This document shows positions 33,856-37,543 of a stretch of 38,231 nt of DNA, in pieces. The translations under genes were made by a program, and so were the position numbers. Within the stretch, counting starts at the first letter, position 1. Every line of letters begins with the position of its first letter. This DNA is from a bacterium. Its GTDB lineage: Bacteria; Campylobacterota; Campylobacteria; Campylobacterales; Sulfurimonadaceae. The notes under the pieces are model-generated. The model was not told the origin of the DNA, did no database searches, and was given only the letters and a program-made list of their open reading frames with translations. The stretch lies in the NCBI GenBank assembly GCA_018825665.1, contig JAHJEG010000014.1, forward strand, positions 1-38,231, given 5' to 3'.

Positions 33856-34334
33856 TTGAAAGAGTTGAGTCAGAAAGAGATAAAAAAGCTAGGTACTTTA
33901 AACGAGGAGCTTAAAGTCATTGAGAATAGAATATACAATATATGTCTTAAACAAAATCAATAGCATTACAAAAAGTTTTAGAGAACGAAAACAACATATT
34001 AGATTATGGGATTGAAGTTAAATATTTCTTTTATGGTGACGAGTATATCAAAGTTGGAGATGAAGAAGACCCTGAACATCTATTAGCTAATTGGACAGAT
34101 AATATAAAATCCATAATGCTGAAAGATGAATGGTGGGGCATAGATGATAACAACTGCCATAATGTGACATCATCCATTCAAAAAAATAAAGAGTTAAACA
34201 CTCAAAAGCATTGTTGGTTATTACATTCATTATACGACAACTACTTTTTGAGTTGGGATGATATTTTTAAAATAGATAGTGTTTATTTTGATGTTAAGAT
34301 ACAATATGAATATTCATCGGAAATTAGTATTTAA
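33856..34334 (+). pseudogene. Frame-disrupted unknown gene before the WYL regulator
   Basis: Begins at TTG 33856 with a strong AAGGAG (33843-33848), and reads 35 helical codons (KELSQKEIKKLGTLNEELKVIEN) to a TAG at 33961. In the -1 frame the coding pattern continues from about 33951 (KSIALQKVLENENN, then KYFFYGDEYIKVGDEED) without any ATG, GTG or TTG until 34116, and runs to a stop at 34334. The simplest reading is one gene of about 159 residues broken by a single-base change near CAAAATC, or a sequencing error. I see no standard -1 slippery heptamer. Product unknown: acidic, Trp-rich, soluble. Confidence 0.6.
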
Positions 34335-34343
34335 AGGTGTGAA

Positions 34344-35264
34344 ATGGCTTACAAGCATGATTATGACAAAATCTTAACAAGACTAACAAATATACTATCA
34401 AAATTGAATGATGGCGAGGCTCTATCAGTCAAAGAGTTAGCCGAAGAGTTTAATGTAAGTTCTAAAACTATACAGAGAGATTTTAACGAAAGGCTAAGTG
34501 CTTTTCCTGTCTATCAAGATAAACGAAAATGGAAAATGCAAGATGGCTTTAGGGTTGAAAAGACCAAGTCATTAGAAGAACAGCTTGTTTTAGACATCAT
34601 AGAAAAAATGACTGAAAGCATTGGCGGTAAGTTTGCCACTACATCCCATAAACTACTATCTAAAATCAAAAATGAAGATTTTAATCCTATATATACAAAG
34701 TTAAATATAGAAGATATAAGTGATAGGTTTGATGATATTCAGATTATAGAAAAAGCCATCAAAGATAAAACTGAACTAGAGTGTAGTTATGAAAATGAGA
34801 GAGAGGGGATTTTTCGAGCAAATATCCAACCTCTTAAAATAGTCAACTATGAAGGCTTTTGGTATTTAGTTGCTTTTAGAGATGGCTATGTCCAAAAATA
34901 CTACATCAAAACTCTTTCAAATATAAAAACAACTAGCAAAACATTTGTAGTAGATGAAAATATACAAGAGTTGTTAGAGAACTCTATCAGTATTTGGTTT
35001 AAAGCAGATATAGAACCTTTTGAAGTGAAAATACATGCTGATGAAGTCGCTACAAAATACTTCAAACGCAGAGCATTACCAACACAAACAATAGAAACTT
35101 TAAGTCAAGATGGAACTATGGAGTTTATAGTTACTATTACAGATGAGATGGAAATTATACCTATTATTAAGTATTGGATACCTCATTTGAAAGTTTTAGA
35201 GCCTGACTGGGTTAATGATGTGATTGATGAGGAATTAAAATTATTTTTAAAACAAAGGAATTAA
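34344..35264 (+). CDS. HTH-WYL transcriptional regulator
   Basis: A 306-residue protein. The N-terminal winged helix is at about 10-70: LNDGEALSVKELAEEFNVSSKTIQRDFNERL. A WYL domain at about 140-215 shows IQPLKIVNYEGFWYLVAFRDGYVQKYYIKTLSNI, and a WCX-like C-terminal domain follows at about 225-300. WYL regulators control many phage-defence and DNA-damage loci and are thought to bind a nucleic-acid ligand. It starts with AAAGG 7 nt upstream of the ATG and sits 3 bp before the nuclease gene, so it most likely regulates this cassette. Confidence 0.92.
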   Translation: MAYKHDYDKILTRLTNILSKLNDGEALSVKELAEEFNVSSKTIQRDFNERLSAFPVYQDKRKWKMQDGFRVEKTKSLEEQLVLDIIEKMTESIGGKFATTSHKLLSKIKNEDFNPIYTKLNIEDISDRFDDIQIIEKAIKDKTELECSYENEREGIFRANIQPLKIVNYEGFWYLVAFRDGYVQKYYIKTLSNIKTTSKTFVVDENIQELLENSISIWFKADIEPFEVKIHADEVATKYFKRRALPTQTIETLSQDGTMEFIVTITDEMEIIPIIKYWIPHLKVLEPDWVNDVIDEELKLFLKQRN

Positions 35265-35267
35265 AAT

Positions 35268-35948
35268 ATGATAGAAGCTGAAATGTGTAATAAAATTCCA
35301 AAACTAGAAACTTGGGAAGATATTTTAACTTCCAATGTATTTGGATTATTAGACTTACTAAATAATGAGTACTTATTAGAAATCGTATCAAATGCTAAAA
35401 ATCACAACAACCAGCAAATAAGCTTTAAGGATAGGTATGTTAAAAGCGTTAAACTTTGGAAAAACTTTAAAAATATTGGCGAGCCTGATATTGTTGTGAC
35501 TTTAGATGATAATAGTTTTTTTATTATCGAAGTTAAATACTTTAGTCATGAACATAATGGTAAAAAAGAGATACAAGAAAGTGAAGATGAAGAGCAAAAG
35601 CAAGAAAAAGGACAGTTAGCTAAATATTTTGATATAAAGATAGATAATAAAAAAAGTGATTTCATCATCTATCTTACGCAAGATTATCAAAGTTTAAAAG
35701 TGATACAAAATAGTGATGATAAAAAGGCAAACAGTAAAAGCTCTTTAGATAAAATTTATCATATTCATTGGAATGAATTTAATGAATATTTGATAAGTAT
35801 TAAAGGGGTTGATGGTATTAAAAAGAATATCATTGATAAAATTATAGAGTATTTAAACTTTAAAGGTTTCAGATATTGGTCAGGGATTAAATACAGAAAA
35901 GAGTATGAAAAATTAAAATTAAATATAGGGGAATTTTATGGAGAGTAA
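35268..35948 (+). CDS. Predicted PD-(D/E)XK nuclease
   Basis: A 226-residue protein. GEPDIVVTLDDNSFFIIEVKY shows the PD-(D/E)XK fold core: Asp74, Glu88 and Lys90 (E-V-K), with Gln116 in the following helix (QLAKYFD). The N-terminal block ETWEDILTSNVFGLLDLL recalls a lead-in of predicted endonucleases in defence loci. Residues 95-115 are strongly acidic and charged. No helicase or methyltransferase is present beside it, so target choice must come from the protein itself or the partner gene. Its end overlaps the next gene by 11 bp, indicating coupled synthesis. Confidence 0.8.
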   Translation: MIEAEMCNKIPKLETWEDILTSNVFGLLDLLNNEYLLEIVSNAKNHNNQQISFKDRYVKSVKLWKNFKNIGEPDIVVTLDDNSFFIIEVKYFSHEHNGKKEIQESEDEEQKQEKGQLAKYFDIKIDNKKSDFIIYLTQDYQSLKVIQNSDDKKANSKSSLDKIYHIHWNEFNEYLISIKGVDGIKKNIIDKIIEYLNFKGFRYWSGIKYRKEYEKLKLNIGEFYGE

Positions 35949-36630
35949 TCAGAAAAAAACCATGACAGATATTGTTAATGCATTTAGATTGTTAAATGGT
36001 GATTTAAGAGAGTCTTTTAAGATAATGAGTGATAAGCTAGATGCTACTTCAGATTTTAGTGCTTGGAAAAAGTATGAAAAATCAATAAAACCATCGATAG
36101 AAGATTATCGAGATTGGGATGATTTTATAAAAGGAAATGATAATTGGTATTATTTAAATTATTATGGTCTTTATGAGGAAAAGGTTGTAGGATTTACATT
36201 TGTAATTAGTGTAGATTATGATAAGGAAAGTGATGTGGATTATTATGACTTTATAAATAAACTTGATGGAGAGATTAATAAAAACTCTCCGCTACTTTGT
36301 ATCGCTGGTGTATATTCTTTAATAGATGATAATATTAAAAAAGCTAAATTTTTAAAAGATGAAACTTGGACTTATGTAGATGATATTTTACAGTTTACAG
36401 GGGATTGTAAAAATTATAATATAGATGATATATCATATGAGAAATGGATTAGTATTGAAATGGATTATGAGAAAAATGGAGAAGTGAAAGGTGGATTTGA
36501 GGGGTGGTATAAAGAAGCATCTATCAATATAGTTAATATTACAGATATTTCTTCAAAAGAAAAGGCTGAAAAAATTATTGATGATTTAATTCATCAAGTA
36601 AAAACGGACATAAAGCAGTCCAGTAAGTAG
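35938..36630 (+). CDS. Unknown protein coupled to the nuclease
   Basis: A 230-residue soluble protein, acidic and rich in Asp, Tyr, Lys and Ile, with no signal peptide or membrane helix. No family recognised. An N-terminal helical stretch (MTDIVNAFRLLNGDLRESFKIMSDKL) resembles a dimer helix, then a Trp/Tyr-rich middle (SAWKKYEKS, NDNWYYLNYYGLYEEKVVGFTF) alternates strands and helices. It starts within the last codons of the nuclease gene, which suggests a complex or a toxin/antitoxin-like balance (inference). It ends 35 bp before the LRR gene. AT-rich like its neighbours, as expected for transferred DNA. Confidence 0.75.
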   Translation: MESNQKKTMTDIVNAFRLLNGDLRESFKIMSDKLDATSDFSAWKKYEKSIKPSIEDYRDWDDFIKGNDNWYYLNYYGLYEEKVVGFTFVISVDYDKESDVDYYDFINKLDGEINKNSPLLCIAGVYSLIDDNIKKAKFLKDETWTYVDDILQFTGDCKNYNIDDISYEKWISIEMDYEKNGEVKGGFEGWYKEASINIVNITDISSKEKAEKIIDDLIHQVKTDIKQSSK

Positions 36631-36665: not shown

Positions 36666-36992
36666 ATGATACCAGATAAAAATATAGTTAAACTGTTTAA
36701 TTGGGCAAAAAAGTATCAAGTAGATGACATTTTAGAAAATAGAGAGACTTTACAAAGCCTAAAAAGTTTGGATTTGTCATATAGACTACTAAGCTCTTTA
36801 CCTTCAGAAATATTTCTACTTACATCACTTGAAGAATTAGATATTTCTCATAACAATTTAAAAGAGTTACCAGCAGATATAACAAAATTAAAATCACTTA
36901 AACTACTAAATATATCGTGGAACCATATCACACATAACCTTGATTTTTTACCTACAAATATAAAAATAAATAGTGCTTGGAATAGATCATGA
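36666..36992 (+). CDS. Small leucine-rich-repeat protein
   Basis: The protein has 108 residues. After a 30-residue helical cap come about three 23-residue repeats: LKSLDLSYRLLSSLPSEIF, LEELDISHNNLKELPADIT and LKLLNISWNHITHNLDFLP. They fit L-x-x-L-D-(L/I)-S-x-N-x-(L)-x-x-L-P, a standard protein-binding solenoid, here too short to be complete alone. It has no signal peptide, so it is cytoplasmic. Its TGA overlaps the next ATG (ATGA), implying that the LRR protein and the FtsZ-C-like protein are made as partners. Confidence 0.85.
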   Translation: MIPDKNIVKLFNWAKKYQVDDILENRETLQSLKSLDLSYRLLSSLPSEIFLLTSLEELDISHNNLKELPADITKLKSLKLLNISWNHITHNLDFLPTNIKINSAWNRS

Positions 36993-37543
36993 AAATACTA
37001 TCAAAAGAAGAATTTGCAATAGAGCTAAATAAAATTGTAACTTATGGTGCTAGTGATATAGAAATAGGTATAGAAGATATGAAAATTGCGGCTAGAGGTG
37101 ATATTTATGTAACTGAATGTCTAGATTTAGATAGCGATGATAACAGTATCATCTTGGACATTGAAGATATAAATCAGATAACAAAAAATAAAGATTTACT
37201 AGTAATGAGTACTTCAGAATGCAGTGGTAATAATTCGGCTGAAAAAGCTATAAAGTTGGCTATTTTAGATTTTGAAAAAAACAATCTTTTGCTAAAAGAA
37301 GCTGATGGAATTTTAATATATTTTCAAATAAATTCTGATTACAAGATGGTTGAAATTGCAGAAGCTGTAGATATTGTTAATATAAAGTGTGAAAACGACA
37401 TAATCCTTGAAGAGCCTGATATAATATGGGGAATATCTTGTGATAATGGTTTAAAAAATGATTATGTGAAAGCTACAGTTTTTATTGGCTTTTCTAAAAA
37501 AGGGAAATATGGGAATAACTATATAGATAAATCTGTAGTATAA
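36989..37543 (+). CDS. Protein with a lone FtsZ C-terminal-like domain
   Basis: The protein has 184 residues. Residues about 73-168 read like the C-terminal domain of FtsZ: VMSTSECSGNNSAEKAIKLAI, LLLKEADGILIYFQINSDYKMVEIAEAVDIV, EEPDIIWGISCDNGLKNDYVKATVFIGF. In FtsZ the matching parts are M-G-x-G-x-(S/A)-G-x-x-R-A-x-x-A, G-A-x-G-x-L-V-N-I, D-x-x-L-x-E, and V-I-x-G-x-x-x-D-x-x-L-x-x-x-(I/L)-x-V-T. The GTP-binding domain with GGGTGTG is absent, replaced by about 70 residues with a helix and strands (SDIEIGIEDMKI). It could cap or poison FtsZ filaments (inference). Coupled to the LRR gene. Confidence 0.65.
   Translation: MKILSKEEFAIELNKIVTYGASDIEIGIEDMKIAARGDIYVTECLDLDSDDNSIILDIEDINQITKNKDLLVMSTSECSGNNSAEKAIKLAILDFEKNNLLLKEADGILIYFQINSDYKMVEIAEAVDIVNIKCENDIILEEPDIIWGISCDNGLKNDYVKATVFIGFSKKGKYGNNYIDKSVV

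Follow-up and report, generated by a model that had tools for sequence, protein, structure and literature searches.

The last gene of a compact, same-strand run at the end of a 38,231-nucleotide stretch of DNA from a member of the Sulfurimonadaceae (assembly GCA_018825665.1, contig JAHJEG010000014.1; the whole stretch is referred to here as the window) codes for a 184-amino-acid (aa) protein that is, judged by a clear predicted fold and by a sequence match lying below the family cut-off, a stand-alone C-terminal subdomain of FtsZ (FtsZ-C; 36989..37543, forward strand). Paralogues of this kind recur in the genus Sulfurimonas, and their commoner companion is a WYL regulator, not the leucine-rich-repeat (LRR) protein coded immediately upstream in the window. 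The recurrence beside a kind of regulator tied to DNA damage and phage defense suggests a role as a division brake or as a bait.

The gene run and the FtsZ-C protein

All genes of the run are on the forward strand. It opens with an HTH-WYL transcriptional regulator (34344..35264; 306 aa) with WYL, WCX, and HTH Pfam matches above cut-off and a PADLOC WYL match at an E value of 1.7e-27. Three bases further on is a nuclease-like protein (35268..35948; 226 aa) that matches the PADLOC candidate defense family PDC-M15A (E 9.8e-8), has a weak REase-ARP Pfam match below cut-off (E 0.018), and carries a PD-(D/E)XK-like motif by eye. Its gene shares 11 bases with the next (35938..36630), which codes for a 230-aa protein without an assigned family; searches of Pfam, TIGR, and PADLOC families gave chance-level matches only, the AlphaFold model is unusable (pLDDT 44), and relatives of this protein adjoin a PDC-M15A-like gene in loci L027 and L034 as well. 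The run is completed by the LRR gene (36666..36992; 108 aa, three repeats, LRR_8 E 5.3e-11) and the FtsZ-C gene; both are present at the positions given in the first-pass annotation, as is the ATGA stop-start overlap (36989..36992) by which it took them to be coupled. Because successive genes are spaced by 3, -11, 35, and -4 bases, those from WYL to FtsZ-C probably form one operon. In L023 a 155-aa protein is coded next to the LRR/FtsZ-C pair, and part of it is matched by a 72-aa open reading frame ahead of the window run (34116..34334; phmmer E 1.6e-33), which is probably a remnant. At the contig end (38179..38231) there is what by eye resembles the start of an IS3-type transposase gene, and the island with the FtsZ-C gene may be flanked by an insertion sequence.

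The 184-aa protein matches the FtsZ_C family (PF12327) over residues 72 to 164 with an E value of 7.9e-5, a hit to the profile named in the first-pass annotation, but at 23.3 bits it scores below the curated cut-off of 27. The TIGR00065 ftsZ model is matched at positions 207 to 328 of 353 only (E 1.4e-6; 27.9 bits against an equivalog score of 295.2), and solved FtsZ chains match over their C-terminal part (best E 1.5e-6). The protein had been described as lacking the GTPase domain, which agrees with the absence of any Tubulin/FtsZ GTPase family among the Pfam matches up to E 1 (two families listed) and with the paralogue alignment, in which the domain and its G-box are likewise missing. SulA (PF03846) was not matched up to E 1, and no PADLOC family was matched by either the FtsZ-C or the LRR protein at the same threshold.

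An AlphaFold2 model, built from an alignment of 25 rows with the host FtsZ among them, has a mean pLDDT of 81 and a pTM of 0.77, with block means of 79 to 98 over residues 51 to 170 and values below 50 at residues 34 to 47, 175 to 177, and 182 to 184. The best 50 matches listed for this model are all FtsZ, both with Foldseek (best E 3.4e-9) and with VIA-align 2 (Z up to 15.6, rmsd 2.4, 122 residues), in keeping with the predicted fold of the first-pass annotation. The full FtsZ C-terminal pattern that it had also proposed holds for the subdomain and its fold, but Ile replaces the first Asn of the synergy loop, and approximately residues 17 to 46 are an insertion relative to the nearest relative, modeled at low confidence. 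An intact ftsZ of 370 aa is present elsewhere in the same genome, and the 184-aa protein is thus a paralogue: a former FtsZ that has been cut down to its C-terminal subdomain with the synergy loop. It shares with FtsZ the fold and sequence of this subdomain and the synergy-loop aspartates, and differs in lacking the GTPase domain and the C-terminal peptide, in scoring below the family cut-offs, and in being separate from the host ftsZ.

The synergy (T7) loop was located at residues 52 to 61 (NSIILDIEDI; 37142..37171) in an alignment of 35 paralogues and 19 FtsZ proteins that includes a 150-aa frame of L034 discussed below. Asp57 and Asp60 fall in the columns of host FtsZ Asp215 and Asp218, which correspond to the aspartate pair of the E. 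coli synergy loop by which the GTPase site of the adjacent subunit is completed. The Asp218 equivalent is kept in 31 of the 35 paralogues and is the second most conserved of 123 columns, and the Asp215 equivalent is kept in 28 and ranks fifth; among the 27 paralogues of 230 aa or fewer the counts are 24 and 21. The equivalent of Asn213, the loop's first Asn, is kept in just 17 of 35 (rank 77 of 123). A lone subdomain would keep the aspartates if it still meets the nucleotide face, or if an inhibitor reads that loop. The tail of the protein ends NNYIDKSVV, unlike the host's YLDIPAYMRQQQD by eye, and in 33 of the 35 paralogues (one of them, L028, cut by a contig end) the last 22 residues show by eye no resemblance to the host C-terminal peptide; L093 and L105 retain something resembling it, again by eye. 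Eight close paralogue pairs, with members shared between pairs, have dN/dS ratios of 0.23 to 0.37 (NG86), and these FtsZ-C copies look selected. Pairs that include the window copy are near or past saturation, with a ratio of 0.42 against L034 at a dS of about 1 and no value against L023.

Paralogues, origins, and partners

Short FtsZ_C frames were sought in 149 relatives and in 135 genomes of the genus Sulfurimonas, and at least 28 paralogues were counted in at least 24 of the 135. This count takes in short or broken frames (G151, G157, G058:C12, G023, G083, and G166:C69), and contig-edge or shortened frames taken for the host ftsZ (G034, G077, G172, G181, G185, and G190) were dropped from it. 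Nor does it include L099 (recognized by eye), L103, and a 128-aa frame of L105, which are on loci chosen for their WYL gene; outside the genus, G098, G101, G391, and G402 (with internal stops) and G411 (matches confined to one short frame) were left out. The paralogues range from lone C-terminal subdomains up to proteins of almost complete FtsZ length, whose GTPase domain looks intact or is degenerate, as in L105 (459 aa), L093 (337 aa), L032 (314 aa), and L033 (277 aa). Copies in L073, G023, and G157 are broken by stops or cut, and those in L078 and L095 are very divergent. The 150-aa frame L034:5000-5449 may be a degenerate FtsZ-C; it has no Pfam match and, although a row of alignments A1 and A3, is not part of the tree.

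The window copy groups with those of L023 (genome G002), L034 (G055), and L033b (one G083 copy) in a clade with support of 99/93. In the tree the paralogues are not gathered into a single clade distinct from ftsZ, and its starred branches force at least two changes. A single origin was rejected by the AU test (P = 1.7e-6), in a tree with long branches and unsettled bootstrap values. As placed by this tree, which omits rows L034d, L091, and L028 and in which long branches limit finer detail, the FtsZ-C paralogues arose more than once. The L105 protein falls among Sulfurimonas FtsZ; this nearly complete paralogue (L105:3715-5091) matches TIGR00065 above cut-off, has an FtsZ-tail-like end, and carries an added C-terminal stretch weakly resembling a RecG wedge domain, below cut-off. 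In another family of the order, a 216-aa truncated copy lies directly downstream of ftsZ (L086:5460-6107), groups with its own host's FtsZ, and is an independent tandem duplication.

No FtsZ-C relatives were found in viral contigs, plasmids, or phages, the viral-contig search being sensitive to close relatives only, and a phage or plasmid origin was therefore set aside. A viral structure library searched with the FtsZ-C model gave two matches at E values up to 0.001, one named FtsZ and one unnamed.

The LRR/FtsZ-C pair does recur in other genomes, as the first-pass annotation had asked, but too rarely to define these loci. Of the 135 genomes, three carry close relatives of the small LRR protein, namely the window's, G055, and G002, and in every case an FtsZ-C gene is nearby. 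An LRR match of whatever kind is present in 63 of the 135, with surroundings inspected for part of them. In G002 (L023) the ATGA overlap is the same as in the window, and in G055 (L034) the LRR gene is followed after 2 bases by the 150-aa frame, the clear FtsZ-C gene there following an FlhF-like gene. The LRR relative that ranks next, in G062, is without an FtsZ-C gene in 16 kb of sequence. A different LRR protein (310 aa) follows the FtsZ paralogue of L030 on the same strand, and L074 has what appears by eye to be a remnant of it. As a general rule the pair was rejected, since other partners are coupled in its place.

Of 34 FtsZ-C genes, 8 overlap a partner gene by exactly 4 bases. Close neighbors elsewhere include SIR2 (L031 and L072), IetA-like AAA proteins (L071 and L037), FlhF-like proteins (L034, and L036 by resemblance only), and, in L024 and L029, a 276-aa protein with a GIY-YIG-like motif by eye and no Pfam match; macro, DUF2779, and PDC-M15A-like genes are also neighbors in some loci. 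The AAA protein of about 700 aa related to IetA (L071:4224-6326) is recurrent, with relatives in 11 clustered loci. Such loci also carry pieces or relatives of housekeeping proteins, namely FlhF/SRP-type GTPases, the DnaA ATPase domain, the FtsK gamma domain (once fused to part of the FtsZ GTPase domain), and the IF2 N-terminal domain (L034:5518-6171, L091:8872-9615, L093:10395-10691, L104:4933-5121, L067:6740-7042, L105:5101-5613, and L032:5136-5822), which could be baits, inhibitors, or debris.

Association with WYL regulators

A WYL relative is within 10 kb of 21 of the 28 paralogues counted (at least 28 in all), where about 0.6 would be expected by our own estimate, which assumes uniform placement and 2.2 Mb per genome. 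For comparison, a WYL relative is within 10 kb of 1 of 118 listed ftsZ genes of the genus, many of whose genomes have no WYL relative, and of none of the 24 ftsZ genes in paralogue-bearing genomes. Six of the seven paralogues with no WYL gene nearby are on short contigs or near contig ends with the flank missing, and in one of these, G069, part of a WYL gene is seen at the contig edge; the seventh is in G152, a genome in which no WYL relative was found at E up to 1e-10. Among ten paralogue loci fetched from outside the genus, six have a WYL gene (L087, L088, L090, L091, L093, and L094), and L037, L086, L092, and L096 have none in the stretch. The converse association is weak, in that 9 of 12 loci fetched for a WYL gene, several of them short contigs, show no FtsZ-type gene.

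G330 belongs to another family of the order, yet its WYL protein shares 82.7% identity with that of the window, compared with 57.6% for FtsZ, which points to horizontal transfer. In G501 the WYL protein beside the paralogue is just 32.8% identical and FtsZ is 69.5% identical, and this locus thus has a different WYL subfamily. Scanning of 21 regions upstream of WYL genes for a shared operator revealed isolated palindromes only. The best of the scan is in L023, where the WYL and LRR genes diverge and the space between them holds a perfect inverted repeat of the form 11-6-11 (L023:6400-6501), a candidate operator.

The single WYL sequence of the window has no match among PDB chains up to E 0.001. 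A profile of 15 WYL relatives matches DriD best among these chains, weakly (E 2.9e-5, 26.7 bits), with PafBC at 24.4. Entries 7u02 and 8tp8 align like the DriD entries 7tzv and 9pfq, and 9cu3 is presumably DriD too. The assignment of 7TZV and 9PFQ to DriD follows a published account (PMC12340889).

Division inhibitor, bait, and other readings

We tentatively favor, as possible rather than probable, the reading that FtsZ-C is a WYL-controlled division inhibitor directed at FtsZ. The WYL regulator would respond to a signal of damaged DNA or of phage infection, which by analogy with DriD may be single-stranded DNA, and turn the gene run on. FtsZ-C would then bind host FtsZ, with its own synergy loop set against the nucleotide face, capping or poisoning filaments; because it has no GTPase domain it could not be extended, and because it has no C-terminal peptide it should not reach the membrane anchors. 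Division would halt while the nuclease-like and other genes act, and FtsZ-C would be modulated or exploited by its coupled partner, which is the LRR protein in the window and SIR2, AAA, FlhF-like, or other proteins elsewhere. Among 60 Sulfurimonas genomes neither the LexA DNA-binding domain nor SulA was detected (0 of 60 for each, with E. coli detected among the controls), and the usual SOS division brake therefore seems to be missing. SulA and MciZ both act on FtsZ assembly, and their complexes with FtsZ occur among the VIA-align 2 matches of the 184-aa model; the window protein would likewise act on assembly, but it matches FtsZ itself.

The closest parallel in regulation is in Caulobacter, where DriD activates, independently of SOS, the genes for the division inhibitor DidA and the endonuclease BapE, and DidA is described as a small membrane protein acting on FtsN rather than FtsZ (PMC4211646, PMC12340889). 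The window run shares with this system a WYL-HTH regulator at its head and a nuclease-like gene within it. It differs in that its effector is by fold a piece of FtsZ and not a small transmembrane FtsN binder, and in that control of this effector by the WYL protein is a prediction. Counting against a division inhibitor are the poorly kept loop Asn, the other cargo of WYL loci, the distant WYL protein of G501, the weak DriD match, the action of DidA on FtsN, the broken (L073) and divergent (L078 and L095) copies, and the lack of a shared operator in the regions scanned.

The main rival to a division inhibitor, and also the boldest proposal, is that FtsZ-C is a bait or decoy showing the surface bound by phage inhibitors of FtsZ, which we regard as possible if somewhat unlikely. 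The inhibitor would be either soaked up or made to trigger the coupled partner (LRR, SIR2, IetA-like AAA, or others), forming a sensor-effector module. We know of no phage inhibitor of Sulfurimonas FtsZ. A precedent is T7 Gp0.4, which is predicted to bind the FtsZ C-terminal region at the synergy loop, and CapRel-Ebc is activated only by the Gp0.4-FtsZ complex, FtsZ residues 2 to 9 also being needed (PMC13423816). Both CapRel-Ebc and such a bait would use the FtsZ synergy-loop region as a phage-sensing platform; CapRel-Ebc differs in using the host's own FtsZ, and no separate FtsZ-C gene is mentioned in the excerpted text (PMC13423816). The kept synergy-loop aspartates, the constancy of FtsZ-C among changing and in part overlapping partners, and the defense-type neighbors (SIR2, IetA-like, macro, DUF2779, and PDC-M15A-like) of some loci are consistent with a bait, as are the L024-type copies, which by eye keep an FtsZ-like N-terminal stretch. 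The window copy has no such stretch, however, and in a pure decoy the catalytic aspartates would be dispensable, except where the inhibitor makes its contact through them. A broader form of the bait proposal, that immune baits have been made repeatedly in the Campylobacterales from the C-terminal half of FtsZ, run by WYL regulators, displaying the synergy loop, and coupled to interchangeable effectors, is doubtful. If FtsZ-C were an immune bait, then the DnaA, FtsK, FlhF, and IF2 fragments of like islands would be baits for other targets.

The first-pass annotation had anticipated both a division-blocking protein and a sensor of phage attack, and either idea fits, as far as the sequence comparisons and the analogies go, with the kept aspartates, the absent peptide, the defense-type neighbors, the weakly DriD-like WYL regulator, and the CapRel-Ebc case (PMC13423816). 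For NTP-dependent conflict systems, the proposed effectors include predicted-inactive MinD/ParA and FtsK relatives and, rarely, FtsZ/tubulin domains, although section 17 of that account mentions neither WYL control nor an FtsZ C-terminal subdomain standing alone (PMC7159879). WYL regulators of the BrxR type are likewise known inside defense gene clusters, a setting shared with the window, although FtsZ has no occurrence in the main text of the report (PMC9122601). A WYL-driven division brake, WYL regulators in defense islands, and division-protein effector domains are thus already known, whereas no description of an isolated FtsZ C-terminal subdomain accompanied by a WYL regulator was found in the literature at the level of titles and abstracts, with most subscription journals outside the coverage.

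That FtsZ-C and the coupled LRR protein control each other as a toxin-antitoxin or regulatory pair, with no role in defense, is improbable. The ATGA overlap in the window and L023, the clade of the window, L023, L034, and L033b copies (three of the four near a close LRR relative), and the different LRR protein after the L030 paralogue argue for such a pair, but the close LRR protein is present in just 3 of at least 24 paralogue-bearing genomes and the coupled neighbors vary. That same variation would suit an adaptor carrying partner proteins to the Z-ring without blocking division, which we consider quite improbable, as a single domain would be expected to cap and not decorate a filament. Most improbable of all, and already disfavored by the selection test, are decaying ftsZ duplicates that a hot spot has accumulated and that do little or nothing: stops or truncation disrupt some copies (L073, G023, and G157) and a tandem duplicate lies beside ftsZ in L086, but dN/dS is well below 1 in eight pairs, two aspartates are kept, and one regulator family recurs.

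If FtsZ-C is an immune bait, it would represent an integrated-decoy or guard system in bacteria, a counterpart of integrated decoys, and FtsZ would be a guarded hub beyond the CapRel-Ebc case. If, as we tentatively prefer, it is a division inhibitor, then it would be a natural single-subdomain poison of FtsZ made from FtsZ itself, and would offer a direct test of how bacteria in which neither a LexA DNA-binding domain nor SulA is detected (60 genomes) hold division during damage.
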